Notes under the pieces: model-generated
The model's database searches: none
The model's input: the letters and a program-made list of their open reading frames with translations, nothing else
What the model was told of the DNA's origin: nothing
NCBI RefSeq assembly: GCF_027451485.1
Contig: NZ_DAIDJE010000208.1
Coordinates: 1-64,000, forward strand
Origin: Bradyrhizobium sp.
Lineage (GTDB): Bacteria; Pseudomonadota; Alphaproteobacteria; Rhizobiales; Xanthobacteraceae
Reading direction: 5' to 3'
DNA: 64,000 bases
Program-made: the position numbers and the translations under genes
Shown here: piece after piece, positions 42,277 through 50,225 of the stretch
How the letters are laid out: each line of letters opens with the position of its first letter
Numbering within the stretch: the stretch's first letter is position 1

Positions 42277-43485
42277 ATGGGTGAGGTATTTGTATGTGAC
42301 GCGGTCCGGACTCCGGTTGGCCGCTTCGGCGGTTCGCTGGCCAAGGTTCGCGCCGACGATCTGGCGGCAACGCCGATCAAGGCGCTGATCGCCAAGCACC
42401 CGAACCTCGACTGGTCGCAGGTCGACGAGGTCTATTTTGGCTGCGCCAACCAGGCTGGCGAGGACAACCGCAACGTGGCGCGGATGGCGCTGTTGCTTGC
42501 AGGTCTACCGGATTCGGTTCCCGGCCAGACCCTCAACCGCCTCTGCGCGTCGGGACTGGACGCGGTCGGCGCCGGAGCCCGCGCGATCCGCGCCGGCGAG
42601 ATCGATCTCGCAATTGCCGGCGGCGTCGAATCGATGACGCGGGCCCCCTTCGTGATGGGCAAGGCGGCGGAGGCGTTTTCGCGCTCGGCGGAGATTTTCG
42701 ACACCACGATCGGCTGGCGCTTCATCAATCCACTGATGAAGGCGCAATATGGCGTCGACGCGATGCCGGAAACCGGTGAGAACGTCGCCGAGGAATTTCA
42801 GGTGTCGCGCGCCGATCAGGACGCGTTCGCGCTGCGCTCGCAGCAGCGCGCCGGCAAAGCCATCGCGGCGGGTTATTTCGCCGAGGAAATCGTTGCCGTG
42901 TCAGCGCCCGGCGGCAAGGCCGGCCCGATCACCGTCGACAAGGACGAGCATCCGCGCCCCGAAACCACGATGGAAGGCCTCGCCAAATTGAGGCCGATCG
43001 TGCGTAACCCGGGCACCGTGACCGCCGGCAATGCGTCCGGCGTCAATGATGGCGCCGCCGCCATGATCCTCGCGTCGGAGGCCGCCGTTAAGAAGCATGG
43101 CTTGACGCCGCGGGCCCGGATCCTCGGTCTGGCCTCGGCCGCCGTGCCGCCGCGCATCATGGGTATCGGCCCGGTGCCAGCGACGCGGAAGTTGATGGAG
43201 CGGCTGGGATTGAAAATTTCCGATTTCGATCTGATCGAGCTCAATGAAGCTTTCGCGAGCCAGGGAATAGCCTGCCTTCGCCAGCTTGGCGTTGCGGAAG
43301 ACGCCGACTTCGTCAATCCGCATGGCGGCGCCATTGCGCTCGGTCACCCCCTGGGCATGAGCGGCGCGCGACTGGTCGTGACTGCCGTGCACGGCATGGA
43401 GAAGCGAGGCGGAAAAAGGGCGCTCGCGACGATGTGCGTCGGCGTGGGCCAGGGCGTCGCCATGGCGATCGAGAAGCTGAACTGA
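42277..43485 (+). CDS. Thiolase, probable 3-oxoadipyl-CoA/acetyl-CoA acyltransferase
   Basis: A 402-residue thiolase. The acyl-accepting Cys is in NRLCASGLDAV (near residue 90). The second catalytic set is NEAFA, the His in GHPLGMSGAR (near 356) and Cys in MCVGVGQG (near 387). The length and sequence style (GEVFVCDAVRTPVGRFGG, IGPVPATRKLMERL) are closest to PcaF, 3-oxoadipyl-CoA thiolase of the beta-ketoadipate pathway, but acetyl-CoA acetyltransferase cannot be excluded. AAGGAG precedes the ATG. It lies upstream of the TetR-lig cluster on the same strand. Confidence 0.88.
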   Translation: MGEVFVCDAVRTPVGRFGGSLAKVRADDLAATPIKALIAKHPNLDWSQVDEVYFGCANQAGEDNRNVARMALLLAGLPDSVPGQTLNRLCASGLDAVGAGARAIRAGEIDLAIAGGVESMTRAPFVMGKAAEAFSRSAEIFDTTIGWRFINPLMKAQYGVDAMPETGENVAEEFQVSRADQDAFALRSQQRAGKAIAAGYFAEEIVAVSAPGGKAGPITVDKDEHPRPETTMEGLAKLRPIVRNPGTVTAGNASGVNDGAAAMILASEAAVKKHGLTPRARILGLASAAVPPRIMGIGPVPATRKLMERLGLKISDFDLIELNEAFASQGIACLRQLGVAEDADFVNPHGGAIALGHPLGMSGARLVVTAVHGMEKRGGKRALATMCVGVGQGVAMAIEKLN

Positions 43486-43505
43486 CTGCGCGGGCATCGC
43501 GCAGT
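43485..43505 (+). terminator. Hairpin directly after the thiolase stop
   Basis: Perfect 8-bp arms ACTGCGCG (43485-43492) and CGCGCAGT (43498-43505) have a 5-nt loop and begin at the last base of the TGA stop. Only a short TTT follows, so this is a weak candidate terminator separating the thiolase from the tetR-lig transcript. Confidence 0.4.
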
Positions 43506-43674
43506 TTGCATCGAGTCGGGCTGCCCTGTTCTGCCTGCCAGGCGCTAGGACGACCGGGATCTAGAGGCGCGCAGAGACAAACAATCGCGGTTCCGCGAGC
43601 ACCCTCGCTCGCATTGACGACCTGAAATCGATTCACGGATCGGCGCTCTGCCGGGCCGGCGATCCTTGTTGACT

Positions 43675-43714
43675 TATCCATATCGTTTGTACAAAGGTAC
43701 AAATGATATGGATA
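43675..43714 (+). promoter_or_regulatory. Long palindromic operator covering the tetR start
   Basis: 18-bp arms TATCCATATCGTTTGTAC (43675-43692) and GTACAAATGATATGGATA (43697-43714) match with one mismatch around a 4-bp centre. The right arm includes the ATG at 43708, and AAAGG at 43693-43697 would be the ribosome site. TTGACT at 43669-43674 could be the -35. TetR-family dimers bind such palindromes, so autorepression is likely. No second copy was found before ligJ or the thiolase. Confidence 0.65.
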
Positions 43715-44445
43715 GAAAGCCCGCCGATAAGGAACGGTCGCGCAAGCCGAACATGCGCGAAGCCATTCTCGTGGCCGCGGAGGAATTGTTCTCGACGAAA
43801 GGGTTCAGCGCCGTGACGGTGCGGGATATTGCGCAGGCCGCCGGCGCAAATCCGGGCAGCGTGACGTATCATTTCCGGACCAAGGACGAGTTGCTTCTGG
43901 AAATCTACCGGCGTCACTGCAAGCCGATGAACCTCAGGCGCGCCGAGCTACTGGCCGCCGCCAATCGGGTGCGCGATCTGCAGGACAGACTGGAGGCAAT
44001 CGTCCGTGCCTACGTCCTGCCGGCATTTTCTTCCGGCAGCGATCTCGCCGGCGGAGGAGCGCGTTTCACGCGGTTGCGCGCCATCATGTCGGCCGAGGGA
44101 AATGAAGTCACCCGGCGCATCATCGCGCAGACCTTCGACGACATCAGTCACGCCTTTATCGATGCAGTGCATAACAGCCTTCCACATATCCCGCGCGCGG
44201 ACATCGTCTGGCGCAACCATTTCCTTCTCGGGGCACTCTATTATACGCTGGTGATGCCAGAGCGCGTGTCCCGGCTGTCGCGCGGCGATTCCGACGGGGC
44301 CGACGCCGGAGATGCGATCGAGCAGTTGGTAAAGGCGACTGTGGCTTCGCTGCAAGCGCCTGCACTCGATCGGGGGGGACCACCTTTGCGGCGATCCGCG
44401 GCACCAACCAAGTCTCGCGCGGGCGACGGTTACACGCCAAGATAA
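43708..44445 (+). CDS. TetR family regulator upstream of the protocatechuate 4,5-cleavage operon
   Basis: A 245-residue TetR-type repressor. The N-terminal helix-turn-helix spans about 12-65 (MREAILVAAEELFSTKGFSAVTVRDIAQAAGANPGSVTYHFRTKDEL, read in pieces), and a helical ligand-binding domain follows to about 210. The Ser/Pro/Arg-rich tail looks disordered. It precedes ligJ by 142 bp on the same strand and probably controls itself and the lig genes. Known lig and pmd operons are controlled by LysR- or other-type regulators, so a TetR protein here is notable. ATG 43708 lies in the palindrome described separately. Confidence 0.9.
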   Translation: MDRKPADKERSRKPNMREAILVAAEELFSTKGFSAVTVRDIAQAAGANPGSVTYHFRTKDELLLEIYRRHCKPMNLRRAELLAAANRVRDLQDRLEAIVRAYVLPAFSSGSDLAGGGARFTRLRAIMSAEGNEVTRRIIAQTFDDISHAFIDAVHNSLPHIPRADIVWRNHFLLGALYYTLVMPERVSRLSRGDSDGADAGDAIEQLVKATVASLQAPALDRGGPPLRRSAAPTKSRAGDGYTPR

Positions 44446-44587
44446 AGGGATTTCCGATCGTCCCGGATTATTCGAAGAGGAAAGACGAACGGGGCAGGTG
44501 GGCAAGCCGGCAGCGCTGACGGCAGATCGATCGCTTGGGGACCCGCAGCGACCCCCGTCCCACTGCCGCAACTGAAGAGGAGATCAC

Positions 44588-45616
44588 GTGATCATCGATG
44601 TGCACGGCCACTATACCACGGCGCCGAAGGCCCTTGAGGATTGGCGCAGCCGGCAGATCGCCGGCATCAAGGATCCCGCGGTCAGACCCAAGGCCAGCGA
44701 GCTGAAGATCAGCGACGACGAGCTGCGGGAGTCCATCATCGACAACCAGCTCAGGCAAATGAAGGAGCGTGGCAGCGACCTGACCATCTTCAGCCCGCGC
44801 GCAAGCTTCATGGCCCACCACATCGGCGATTTCGAGGTGTCGTCGACATGGGCCGCGATATGCAACGAGCTGTGCTGGCGCGTCAGCACGCTATTCCCGG
44901 ACAATTTCGCCGCTGCTGCGATGTTGCCTCAATCGCCCGGCGTCGATCCGAAGACCTGCGTGCCGGAGATCGAGAAGTGCGTCAAGGAGTATGGCTTCGT
45001 CGGCATCAACCTCAACCCCGATCCCTCCGGAGGGCACTGGACCTCGCCGCCGCTTTCGGATCGTCATTGGTACCCGATCTACGAGAAGATGGTCGAGCTC
45101 GACATCCCGGCCATGATCCATGTCTCGACGAGTTGCAATCCCTGCTTCCATACGACCGGGGCGCACTACCTGAATGCCGATACGACAGCCTTCATGCAGT
45201 GTTTGACGTCGGATCTGTTCAAGGATTTCCCGACCTTGAGATTCCTGATCCCGCATGGCGGCGGCGCGGTTCCTTATCATTGGGGCCGCTTCCGCGGCCT
45301 CGCGCAGGAGATGAAGAAGCCGCTGCTCAAGGATCATCTTCTGAAGAACATCTTTTTCGATACCTGCGTCTATCACCAGCCTGGAATCGACCTGCTCACC
45401 AGGGTGATCCCGGTCGATAACGTCCTGTTCGCCAGCGAGATGATCGGCGCCGTTCGCGGCATCGATCCGGAAACCGGTTTCCACTACGACGACACAAAGC
45501 GCTACATCGAAGCCGCCTCCACCCTCAGCGCGCAGGACCGGTACAAGATCTACGAAGGCAATGCGAGGCGCGTATTTCCGCGCCTGGATGCGGCGCTGAA
45601 AGCAAAAGGAATCTGA
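44588..45616 (+). CDS. ligJ: 4-Oxalomesaconate hydratase LigJ
   Basis: A 342-residue amidohydrolase-fold hydratase of the protocatechuate 4,5-cleavage pathway, which adds water to give 4-carboxy-4-hydroxy-2-oxoadipate. It resembles Sphingobium LigJ along its length: IIDVHGHY (metal HxH), MTIFSPRAS-like [63 protein letters not shown] and [11 protein letters not shown]. The start is GTG 44588 with GAGGAG upstream. It is the first structural gene of the operon, with ligK starting 2 bp after its stop. Confidence 0.95.
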
Positions 45617-45618
45617 GC

Positions 45619-46314
45619 ATGAGCGGTGCGATGAACGACCTCGGAATCGTCAAGCGCAATATCGACCGGGCAGATAAGGCCGCGGTCGAGAAATTGTCGC
45701 GATTCGGCGTCGCCACGATCCACGAGGCGATGGGTCGGGTCGGCCTGATGCATCCTTATATGCGTCCGATCTATGCCGGAGCCCGCCTGTGCGGCACCGC
45801 CGTTACTGTGCTGCTGCAGCCGGGGGATAACTGGATGCTGCACGTGGCGGCCGAGCAGATACATCCGGGTGATGTCGTGGTCGCGGCCTGCACCGTCGAC
45901 AACACCGACGGCTTTTTTGGCGATCTGCTCGCTACCAGCTACCGTGCCCGCGGCGCGAAGGGTCTCGTCATCGATGGCGGCGTGCGCGACGTTACGGATC
46001 TTACCGAAATGCAATTCCCGGTGTTTTCGCGCGCGATCAGCGCTCGGGGCACGGTCAAGGCGACGCTTGGCTCCGTGAACATTCCAGTCGTCTGCGCCGG
46101 CGCAACCGTAAATCCGGGCGACGTGGTGGTTGCGGATATGGACGGAGTGGTGATCGTACCCGCCCGGATCGCGCAGCAGGCGGCGGATGCGGCGGAAGCA
46201 CGTGAGGCCAACGAAGCGGACAAGCGCGACAAGCTTGCGCAAGGCGTTCTGGGCATCGACATGTACAAGATGCGGGAACCGCTCGCAAAGGCTGGGTTGA
46301 GATATATCGATTGA
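45619..46314 (+). CDS. ligK: 4-Carboxy-4-hydroxy-2-oxoadipate aldolase LigK
   Basis: A 231-residue class II aldolase of the RraA-like fold, which cleaves 4-carboxy-4-hydroxy-2-oxoadipate to pyruvate and oxaloacetate, the last step of the pathway. Active-site segments are [29 protein letters not shown] (read in pieces), VIDGGVRDV with the Arg-Asp pair near 124, and [14 protein letters not shown]. The order after ligJ matches pmdE-pmdF of Comamonas. The stop of ligJ is 2 bp upstream, indicating translational coupling. Confidence 0.94.
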
Positions 46315-46347
46315 CCCACAGCGGCGAGAGTTCAAGAGAGTTTGTCA

Positions 46348-47049
46348 ATGACCGCTGATATCGTTGGCATTTCATCGATGGCCACCCGTCAGATCCTGGC
46401 GGAGTGTTCCGGCGCATATCGGCAAAAGGCGGGACGCTCGGTCGCTATCGAGTCAGTCGGCGGCGTCGATGCTGCGCGCCGCGTCCGGGCCCGCGAGAAA
46501 TTCGACATCGTCGTGCTCGCCGACGACGCCATGAGGAAGCTCGAAGAGGACGGTTTCCTCAAACCGGGGACCCGCGCTGCCTTCGCCGAGTCGGCGATTG
46601 CGGTGGCTGTGCGAGGCGGCGCCACACGTCCCGATCTCTCGGACGAAGCCGCGACAAAAGCGGCAGTTTTGTCCGCGCGCTCGGTTGGCTACTCCACGGG
46701 TCCCAGCGGGACGCATGTGCTCAAGCTACTGGAAAAATGGGGGGCCGATCGGTCAAACACGGTGCGTATCGTTCAGGCTCCCCCGGGCGTTCCGGTGGGC
46801 ACCTTGCTGGCGCGCGGGGATGTTGAACTCGGCTTTCAGCAATTGAGCGAGTTTCTGGATGTCCCGGGCATCGATGTCGTCGGGTCCTTGCCCCGGGAGA
46901 TTCAATCATTGACCCGGTTTTCATGTGGGGTGTGCGCGCTGACATCCAACGAAGCCGCGGCGCTTGATTTTGTCAGCTATCTGACCTCGACAGAGGCGGA
47001 TGCATCCATACGGCGTCACGGCATGCAACCGACGCAACCAAGATCGTGA
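46348..47049 (+). CDS. ModA-like substrate-binding fold protein without signal peptide
   Basis: A 233-residue protein with the type II periplasmic binding fold of the ModA family: ISSMATRQILAECSGAYRQ near the N-terminus, FDIVVLADDAMRKLEEDGFL near 52, STGPSGTHVLKLLEKWG near 120, and the terminal FVSYLTSTEADASIRRHG. Unlike ModA it has no signal peptide and so should be cytosolic. No modB/modC genes are near. It lies between ligK and ligI with 33- and 31-bp gaps, inside the lig operon. Its job is unknown; ligand sensing, a chaperone-like role or a missing isomerisation step are all speculative. ATG 46348 follows AGAGAG. Confidence 0.8.
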   Translation: MTADIVGISSMATRQILAECSGAYRQKAGRSVAIESVGGVDAARRVRAREKFDIVVLADDAMRKLEEDGFLKPGTRAAFAESAIAVAVRGGATRPDLSDEAATKAAVLSARSVGYSTGPSGTHVLKLLEKWGADRSNTVRIVQAPPGVPVGTLLARGDVELGFQQLSEFLDVPGIDVVGSLPREIQSLTRFSCGVCALTSNEAAALDFVSYLTSTEADASIRRHGMQPTQPRS

Positions 47050-47080
47050 CGCGAGGGTTGGAACATTGAAGGAAGCGTTT

Positions 47081-48013
47081 ATGTCGAAACCTGTTACGGG
47101 GCCGTTCGAGAAGACCCCGGGTTGGCTTGACTGGTATGCCGCTCCCTCGAAGCCGCGCTTCGTGGTGCCGGTCGGCGCAGTCGACGCGCACTGCCATGTG
47201 TTCGGGCCGGGAGCCGAATTCCCTTACGCGCCGGAGCGCAAATACACGCCCTGCGATGCGTCGAGGCAGCAGCTCTACGCGCTGCGCGACCATCTCGGCT
47301 TCGCGCGAAACGTGGTCGTTCAGGCGACCTGTCACGGCAGCGACAACCGCGCGATGATCGACGCACTCGTTCATTCGGGCGGCCGGGCGCGTGGTATCGC
47401 GACCGTAAAGCGCGGCGTAAGCGATGCCGAGCTCAAGGCGATGCACGAGGCAGGCGTGCGCGGGGTTCGCTTCAATTTCGTCAAGCGACTGGTCGATTTC
47501 ACGCCGCGCGACGAACTCATCGAGATAGCCGGCCGGATCGCAAAGTTGGGCTGGCATGTCGTGATCTATTTCGAGGCTGTGGATTTGGCCGAGCTCTGGG
47601 ATTTCTTCACGGCGCTGCCAACCACTGTCGTCGTCGACCATATGGGCAGGCCCGACGTCGCCAAGCCGGTAGACGGCCCCGAGTTCGGGCTGTTCGTGAA
47701 ATTCATGCGTGAGAACCAGAACGTCTGGTCGAAGGTCAGCTGCCCGGAACGCTTATCTGTTTCGGGACCGCCGGCGCTCAATGGCGAGCAGAACGCCTAT
47801 CGAGACGTCGTGCCATTCGCAAAGCGGATCGTCGAGACCTTTCCGGATCGCGTGCTCTGGGGCACCGACTGGCCGCATCCCAATCTCAAGGGGCACATGC
47901 CCGATGACGGTCTCCTGGTCGATTTCATTCCGCACATCGCCACCACGCCTGAGCTTCAGCGCAAACTTCTGGTCGACAATCCGATGCGATTGTACTGGCC
48001 GGAGGAAACATAA
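47081..48013 (+). CDS. ligI: 2-Pyrone-4,6-dicarboxylate hydrolase LigI
   Basis: A 310-residue amidohydrolase that opens 2-pyrone-4,6-dicarboxylate to 4-oxalomesaconate. Family motifs are VDAHCHVFGPGAEFPYAPERKYTP (read in pieces, with HxH), VVVQATCHGSDN, GVRFNFVKRLVD, VVVDHMGRPD and VLWGTDWPHPN. LigI is known to work without a metal despite its fold. The start at 47081 follows GAAGGAAG; the longer frame from 47000 is rejected. ligA follows after 13 bp. Confidence 0.94.
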   Translation: MSKPVTGPFEKTPGWLDWYAAPSKPRFVVPVGAVDAHCHVFGPGAEFPYAPERKYTPCDASRQQLYALRDHLGFARNVVVQATCHGSDNRAMIDALVHSGGRARGIATVKRGVSDAELKAMHEAGVRGVRFNFVKRLVDFTPRDELIEIAGRIAKLGWHVVIYFEAVDLAELWDFFTALPTTVVVDHMGRPDVAKPVDGPEFGLFVKFMRENQNVWSKVSCPERLSVSGPPALNGEQNAYRDVVPFAKRIVETFPDRVLWGTDWPHPNLKGHMPDDGLLVDFIPHIATTPELQRKLLVDNPMRLYWPEET

Positions 48014-48026
48014 AGGAGGCACTGCG

Positions 48027-49270
<1,244 letters not shown>

Positions 49271-49271
49271 C

Positions 49272-50225
49272 ATGACCAAAGTCATCAAAGTCGCGCTCGC
49301 CGGCGCCGGTGCGTTCGGCATCAAGCATCTCGATGGCATCAAGAATATCGAAGGCGTCGAAGTGGTGTCGCTGGTCGGCCGCAGGCTGGAACCGACCAGG
49401 GAAGTCGCTGCCAAATACGGCATCGCCCATGTCTCGACCGATCTCGCCGACAGTCTTGCACTGAGGGAAGTTGACGCCGTGATCCTGTGCACGCCTACCC
49501 AGATTCATGCGTCGCAATCGCTCGCCTGCCTGAAGGCCGGCAAGCACGTGCAGGTCGAGATCCCGCTGGCCGATTCCCTTAAGGATGCACAGGCTGTCGT
49601 CGACTTGCAGAAAAAAACCGGACTGGTCGCGATGTGCGGCCACACCAGACGTTTCAATCCCAGCCACCAATGGGTGCACAAAAGGATCGTTAGCGGCGAA
49701 TACAACATCCAGCAGATGGATGTGCAGACGTTCTTCTTCCGTCGGTCGAATATGAACGCGATGGGCCAGCCGCGGAGCTGGACCGACCACCTGTTGTGGC
49801 ACCACGCGGCGCACACAGTGGATCTGTTCGCCTACCAGACCCGTTCGCCGATCGTAAAGGCGAACGCGGTCCAGGGGCCCATCCACCCGACGCTGGGGAT
49901 CGCGATGGATATGTCCATCCAGCTAAAAACCGAAAGCGGCGCGATCTGCACCCTCAGCCTGTCGTTCAACAATGATGGCCCGCTCGGCACCTTCTTCCGT
50001 TATATCGGCGATACCGGCACGTATATCGCGCGCTATGACGATCTCTTCAACGGCAAGGAAGAAAAGATCGACGTCTCAAAGGTCGATGTGTCGATGAACG
50101 GCATCGAACTGCAGGATCGCGAGTTCTTTGCCGCCATCCGCGAAGGCCGTGAGCCCAACGCGAGCGTCGCCCAGGTCCTGCCGTGCTATCAGGTGCTGCA
50201 ACAGCTGGAGCAACAGCTGGTTTAG
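49272..50225 (+). CDS. ligC: 4-Carboxy-2-hydroxymuconate-6-semialdehyde dehydrogenase LigC
   Basis: A 317-residue Gfo/Idh/MocA-family NAD(P)-dependent dehydrogenase that oxidises the hemiacetal form of the ring-cleavage product to 2-pyrone-4,6-dicarboxylate. The Rossmann motif VALAGAGAFGIKH is at the N-terminus, VQVEIPLADS replaces the more common EKP motif, and LWHHAAHTVDLF contains the active-site histidines. It is the last gene of the operon, 1 bp after ligB, and converges with the emrB-type gene. Confidence 0.95.
   Translation: MTKVIKVALAGAGAFGIKHLDGIKNIEGVEVVSLVGRRLEPTREVAAKYGIAHVSTDLADSLALREVDAVILCTPTQIHASQSLACLKAGKHVQVEIPLADSLKDAQAVVDLQKKTGLVAMCGHTRRFNPSHQWVHKRIVSGEYNIQQMDVQTFFFRRSNMNAMGQPRSWTDHLLWHHAAHTVDLFAYQTRSPIVKANAVQGPIHPTLGIAMDMSIQLKTESGAICTLSLSFNNDGPLGTFFRYIGDTGTYIARYDDLFNGKEEKIDVSKVDVSMNGIELQDREFFAAIREGREPNASVAQVLPCYQVLQQLEQQLV

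Follow-up and report, generated by a model that had tools for sequence, protein, structure and literature searches.

A ModA-like cytosolic protein encoded beside ligJ and ligK as a probable replacement of the 4-oxalomesaconate isomerase LigU

Gene organization of the locus

The stretch of DNA analyzed here, referred to as the window, comprises 64,000 nucleotides from Bradyrhizobium sp. and carries nine consecutive genes on the + strand in the order pcaF, tetR, ligJ, ligK, MLP, ligI, ligA, ligB and ligC (Table 1). MLP is the short name used in this study for the ModA-like cytosolic protein encoded between ligK and ligI. Its gene lies 33 bp 3' of the ligK end (46314) and 31 bp 5' of the ligI start (47081), which are the same distances as those given in the original prediction. 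The ligJ, ligI and ligC genes were named by Pfam family and gene order, with no equivalog model over its cut-off; ligJ gave no NCBIfam match, and its name also draws on the literature. The ligJ homologues that adjoin MLP genes in other genomes were 80-96% identical to the ligJ of the window. The TetR-type regulator encoded upstream of ligJ is a possible regulator of the lig operon. No ABC-transporter gene was found among the nine genes scanned at 42277-50225, in agreement with the earlier statement that modBC genes are missing.

Table 1. Genes of the lig operon region in the window.
Feature	Position	Strand	Evidence or remark
pcaF, 3-oxoadipyl-CoA thiolase	42277..43485	+	TIGR02430, 700 bits; upstream, outside the OMA branch
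TetR-type regulator	43708..44445	+	PF00440, PF17939; upstream of ligJ
ligJ, amidohydrolase-type KCH (OMA) hydratase	44588..45616	+	PF04909; name from family, order and literature
ligK, CHA aldolase	45619..46314	+	TIGR02798, 410 bits, over cut-off
MLP, ModA-like cytosolic protein, proposed 4-oxalomesaconate (OMA) isomerase	46348..47049	+	ATG 46348, TGA 47049; 233 aa
ligI, PDC hydrolase	47081..48013	+	PF04909 and order; no equivalog over cut-off
ligA, protocatechuate 4,5-dioxygenase alpha	48027..48416	+	TIGR02792, 222 bits
ligB	48416..49270	+	PF02900, NF009903
ligC, CHMS dehydrogenase (Gfo/Idh/MocA type)	49272..50225	+	PF19858, PF01408, order

In this pathway, which requires an isomerase between LigI and LigJ, OMA arises either from the action of LigI on PDC or from gallate dioxygenase, and the known OMA isomerases, LigU, GalD and PmdU, are proteins of the PrpF family (PF04303). 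No match to the PrpF family was found in the window genome, an assembly of 216 contigs that is 99.95% complete. The sections of PMC12314914 that deal with the pathway place the isomerase LigU/GalD (OMA tautomerase) before LigJ/GalB (KCH hydratase) and LigK/GalC, and cite work in which LigU was named a 1,3-allylic isomerase. An OMA tautomerase is also named in Rhodopseudomonas palustris in the relevant section of PMC12366328.

Sequence and predicted structure of MLP

The Pfam model SBP_bac_11 (PF13531) matched MLP at 134.7 bits against a cut-off of 25 and was the only Pfam domain found; there was no PF04303 match and no DNA-binding or signalling domain. The predicted structure of MLP had a pLDDT of 94.4, and the nearest solved structure was that of ModA (1atg), with a Z-score of 24.2 and an rmsd of 2.6 Å over 221 residues at 19% sequence identity. 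The predicted fold is thus the type II periplasmic-binding-protein (ModA) fold, as had been proposed. The PDB entry 8zj6 had been considered as a solved ModA-type aconitate isomerase; it is an Acinetobacter ModA that lends no support to this idea and was dropped.

We aligned 48 sequences, namely MLP of the window and 47 relatives with start sites chosen by a script, and no signal peptide was visible in this set, as judged by the loop position and the N-terminal hydropathy. The loop after the first strand, which reads SSMA in 45 of the 48 sequences, starts at residue 2-15, so that no room is left for a signal peptide. The highest 12-residue mean hydropathy within the first 30 residues was 1.69 across the alignment, although hydropathy alone is a weak test of export, as the exported relatives together with ModA span 1.12-2.48. 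The claim that MLP stays inside the cell was therefore upheld. Thirty-four columns of the alignment were invariant, and many of them fall within five loops: SSMA (residues 9-12), VGG (37-39), STGPSG (116-121), APPGVPVG (144-151) and GFQQ..E (162-168). S10, R45, S116, S120, Q164, Q165 and E168 are among the invariant residues. Compared with ModA, the ligand-facing loops are rebuilt: the VGG loop occupies the place of the second serine loop of ModA, and GFQQ..E occupies the place of GIVY.

Comparison of MLP with ModA and other binding proteins

The window genome contains 15 SBP_bac_11 matches, MLP included. One of these is a true ModA, which has a hydrophobic N-terminus and reached 188.3 bits with the NCBIfam ModA model TIGR01256, whereas MLP reached only 33.2 bits, under the cut-off of 62.5. 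In a tree of binding proteins, 10 ModA sequences formed one 100/100 clade, and MLP formed a separate 100/100 clade within a second large group. At the positions aligned with the ModA ligand residues S39 and Y170, MLP reads G and Q. Overall, MLP resembles ModA, the molybdate-binding protein of ModABC, in fold and in the length of the mature protein, but it shows no sign of a signal peptide, the nine neighbours scanned include no transporter gene, and its ligand loops are altered. We also observed, on another contig of the same genome (G000:C127, locus L056:1489-2214), a 242-residue ModA-like protein that seemingly lacks a signal peptide and is encoded away from the lig genes.

Genomic neighborhoods of MLP relatives

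A search of species genomes yielded 49 loci with MLP relatives at 42-83% identity. In 44 of them, the MLP gene shared its strand with ligJ or ligK and lay at most 137 bp away from one of the two, and the gene order in the linked loci was either ligJ-ligK-MLP or MLP-ligJ-ligK. This recurrence indicates that the position of MLP is not due to chance, and it bears out the earlier claim that MLP is tied to the lig pathway. Among the five exceptions, the sequence of one locus (L031) ends inside the MLP gene, the genomes of two others (L047 and L049) have LigJ on another contig, and LigJ lies more than 8 kb away in the genome of L013; no LigJ match was found in the genome of L038. In one genome, G036, MLP was present without a LigJ match. 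Unlinked MLP genes occur at L049:7977-8669 and L156:7076-7741, both in genomes with LigJ elsewhere, and at both loci we take a nearby gene to encode a protein resembling the TrpD/YbiB type.

The plasmid-borne gallate operons of Burkholderia and Caballeronia were found to contain, in this order, gallate dioxygenase (galA), an MFS transporter, ligJ, ligK and, at the end, MLP, and ligI and ligC were absent from them. Because MLP is present in operons without ligI, it is tied to ligJ and ligK rather than to ligI. Since these operons lack both ligI and ligC, the step of MLP should lie at or after OMA, and since the later steps fall to LigJ and LigK, the isomerization of OMA is the only step left unassigned in them.

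The actinobacterial protocatechuate 4,5-cleavage operons of Sphe3 and Arthrobacter keyseri end with a homologue that is 41% identical to MLP, and no LigU is annotated in the actinobacterial operons of this type that carry MLP relatives. The Sphe3 homologue fell in the MLP clade of the binding-protein tree. This substrate-binding-domain gene stands at the place of pcaT and, like MLP, its product shows no visible signal peptide. In a figure legend of PMC8431788, pcaT (Asphe3_42410) of Pseudarthrobacter phenanthrenivorans Sphe3 is given as an 'ABC-type molybdate transport system', a transport assignment that differs from the present reading; the annotation of this Sphe3 operon includes neither a permease nor an ATPase.

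A PF04303 match of some kind was present in 31 of the 47 genomes that gave MLP loci. A gene of the LigU clade was found in only three of these 47 (G018, G024 and G044), each time in a separate cluster, and G041 contained two PF04303 fragments that were left unclassified. G018 has two lig/gal clusters (L138 and L018), one with LigU and the other with MLP.

Distribution of MLP and LigU across the phylum

To compare the occurrence of the two proteins, we used 398 genomes of the phylum, which included the window genome and were chosen independently of MLP. LigJ was present in 34 of them at E<=1e-80. At E<=1e-40, a cut-off that we set within the gap between E 1e-46 and 1e-34, MLP was present in 12 of the 34 LigJ genomes. 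PF04303 proteins of LigU size occurred in 20 of the 34 and were linked to lig genes in 19; all 19 lig-linked LigU proteins fell in a single LigU clade with a starred support of 99. MLP and a lig-linked LigU were never found together (0/34), and only three genomes (G296, G300 and G090), in which LigJ was just 51-65% identical, had neither. The mutual exclusion over the 34 genomes gave a Fisher p of 8e-7, a value uncorrected for relatedness. At the looser threshold of E<=1e-10, 17 of the 34 LigJ genomes matched MLP; the five additional matches were 28-36% identical and included three LigU genomes (G243, G302 and G341), whose matching proteins fell outside the MLP clade in the tree.

Distribution within one beta-proteobacterial family

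The same comparison was made in 150 genomes of one beta-proteobacterial family around G293, with a LigJ cut-off of E<=1e-120. LigJ was present in 92 genomes, of which the 79 that were at least 95% complete were used and the 13 below 95% were set aside. MLP was found in 68 of the 79, and LigU stood beside ligJ in seven. The LigU query matched 37 of the 79 genomes, and only matches beside ligJ were counted as LigU; all seven of these fell in the lig-linked LigU clade, as against none of the 23 other placed matches. Both proteins occurred in one genome (G503), where the MLP was the weakest match (37%) and lay on another contig, and neither occurred in five (G493, G546, G572, G583 and G584). The exclusion in this family gave a p of 1e-5.

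Among 56 genomes of the same family in which LigJ gave no match at E 1e-120, only two contained MLP, as against 68 of the 79 with LigJ (Fisher p 6e-24). This control covers 56 of 58 LigJ-less genomes (58 being inferred from the numbering) at all levels of completeness; when completeness of 90% or more and contamination of 5% or less were required, the figure was 2/47. In 52 of the 68 genomes, MLP and ligJ were no more than 3 kb apart, and in 44 no more than 200 bp, so that orthologues mostly outside lig clusters, which would have spoken against the prediction, were not what we found. In the remaining 16 of the 68, the two genes were separated by more than 3 kb or lay on different contigs; even when unlinked, MLP stays with genomes that have LigJ.

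A complete ligJKIABC protocatechuate 4,5-cluster without MLP or LigU was observed in G493 (locus L241). The presence of a whole cluster without either protein suggests that the isomerization of OMA may proceed to some extent without an enzyme or that a third isomerase may exist.

Phylogeny of LigJ and of PF04303 proteins

A LigJ tree of 84 clusters was built by a quick search with SH-aLRT support only; it left out L022, L023 and L031, the loci L050-L065 and L070-L099 as duplicates, and every locus in which no LigJ stretch exceeded 200 residues at more than 50% identity. MLP was present in 58 of the clusters and LigU in 19, the isomerase was elsewhere in the genome for three, and four had neither. 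No cluster had both, and MLP clusters share the LigU-like trait of one putative isomerase gene per LigJ/LigK cluster. On this tree, a minimum of six changes between MLP and LigU is needed, and the starred branches by themselves require the MLP label, set against every other row, to change five times or more. For example, G243 (LigU) and G129 (MLP), which belong to the same genus, were starred sisters.

The PF04303 proteins were placed in trees of their own. The first tree separated 22 lig-linked LigU proteins, forming one clade with a starred support of 99, from 25 others; with 30 matches from the family test added, the clade held 29 lig-linked rows against 48 others. These trees left out sequences shorter than 250 residues (the two G041 fragments), a 56-residue fragment in G020, 15 weaker LigU-query matches (36-40%) from the family test, and most matches above 460 bits, which were taken as PrpF by score, although eight of them were placed. 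The LigU-size PF04303 proteins encoded elsewhere in MLP genomes were considered as counter-examples to the exclusion and rejected, as the tree sets them outside the lig-linked LigU proteins.

A 3.3-kb contig of the window assembly (G000:C57:1-3308, locus L133) carries a second ligJ-like gene (60%) and ligA- and ligB-like genes on both strands. In the LigJ tree, its LigJ grouped with LigU-type clusters of another family, and the contig may therefore represent a second cluster or contamination. Neighbours beyond its ends could hold a LigU in the window genome.

Proposed function of MLP

Taken together, the co-occurrence of MLP with LigJ, its exclusion of LigU, its position in the slot of LigU and a genome without a PrpF match lead us to propose that MLP is very probably an intracellular OMA isomerase with the ModA fold, which would be a non-orthologous replacement of LigU/GalD/PmdU. 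MLP resembles these proteins in standing beside ligJ and ligK, in the step assigned to it and in the near-exclusive distribution, but it is a 233-residue ModA-fold protein of the unrelated family PF13531, whereas LigU belongs to PF04303 with about 350 residues matched. In the proposed reaction, MLP would isomerize OMA to 2-keto-4-carboxy-3-hexenedioate (KCH), on which LigJ then acts. The two lobes would close on the tricarboxylate, which would be gripped by the five conserved loops, and a conserved side chain would shuttle a proton between the allylic carbons. The catalysis, the substrate and the lobe closure are inferred in this scheme.

The original prediction had left the choice among a sensor, a carrier and an enzyme; the last of these is retained here, and the other two are disfavored by the pattern of LigU exclusion. 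A binding-protein fold that stays in the cell and is encoded in the operon would suit a sensor or carrier to which OMA, PDC or some other intermediate binds without being changed, but such a protein is not expected to be present where LigU is absent and absent where LigU is present. Additionally, Pfam revealed no domain in MLP through which a sensor might bind DNA or signal, and the MLP operons already have TetR or LysR genes nearby, so we regard this role as quite improbable. It is also unlikely that MLP is the enzyme of a different step or tautomer, acting in the keto-enol tautomerization of OMA ahead of LigU-type chemistry or in the removal of a dead-end isomer. The few lig clusters with neither protein would agree with such a role; however, the gallate operons with MLP manage without ligI and ligC while LigJ and LigK account for the later steps, and LigU and MLP hardly ever occur together.

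The ModA fold itself (Z 24) would be explained if MLP were a ModA paralogue that binds molybdate or another oxyanion and has lost its signal peptide. This reading is very hard to sustain, as MLP fails TIGR01256, the window genome encodes another protein that is a true ModA and whose N-terminus is hydrophobic, the ModA clade stands apart from MLP, and the serine and tyrosine ligand positions of ModA align with G and Q. The isomerase reading thus remains the one that we prefer. If it is correct, MLP fills the missing isomerase step in many bacteria that have LigJ and LigK without LigU, and annotations such as 'substrate-binding domain-containing protein' and 'molybdate transport' would need to be corrected. 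It would also offer lignin engineering a smaller alternative to LigU, and would be an example of a fold of binding proteins that has come to serve as an enzyme inside the cell.

Relation to previous reports and to aconitate isomerases

No prior assignment of a function to an MLP-type protein was found in the open-licence PMC papers searched. A term search of the main text of PMC9007349 (Price 2022) found none of the terms, and no such protein is mentioned in the sections consulted of the papers on Hydrogenophaga H7, Comamonas KF-1 and Gordonia.

What would be new is a known reaction carried out on an unrelated fold, for which the aconitate isomerase of Pseudomonas sp. WU-0701 is possibly a known cousin. 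That enzyme was reportedly described by Yuhara in 2015 in FEBS J and is said to be a periplasmic protein of the ModA family. If this is right, it would share with the proposed function of MLP both a ModA-type fold and the allylic isomerization of a tricarboxylate. A G.QQ..E loop is common to MLP and to signal-bearing relatives encoded near LysR and MFS genes on Cronobacter, Salmonella and Sphingomonas plasmids. These possible relatives of the WU-0701 type appear to be exported and belong to different operons, unlike MLP, which is cytosolic and forms one separate clade. On balance, we favor a broader picture in which the ModA fold gave rise to a second, wholly separate line of tricarboxylate allylic isomerases, a counterpart of the PrpF superfamily. 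In this picture, the exported members linked to LysR and MFS genes would have aconitate-like acids as substrates, whereas the substrate of the cytosolic clade would be OMA, formed when Proteobacteria and Actinobacteria break down protocatechuate and gallate, and this clade would have been repeatedly swapped with LigU.

The operon layout of these signal-bearing relatives, with LysR and MFS genes, resembles that of the tar trans-aconitate operon, but the isomerase of the latter is described as a PrpF protein in PMC11495376. According to the same paper, trans-aconitate is used by one Pantoea strain and one Serratia strain in which TarA has no homologue.

At L067:5776-6582, L164, L167 and L168 (Cronobacter, Comamonas, Salmonella and Sphingomonas plasmids), we observed ModA-like proteins that carry a signal peptide and are encoded close to LysR genes, with no ABC permease annotated. 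They are candidate ModA-type aconitate isomerases. An MFS gene adjoins the ModA-like gene at L067, L167 and L168, and L164 has a TTT-type binding protein instead.
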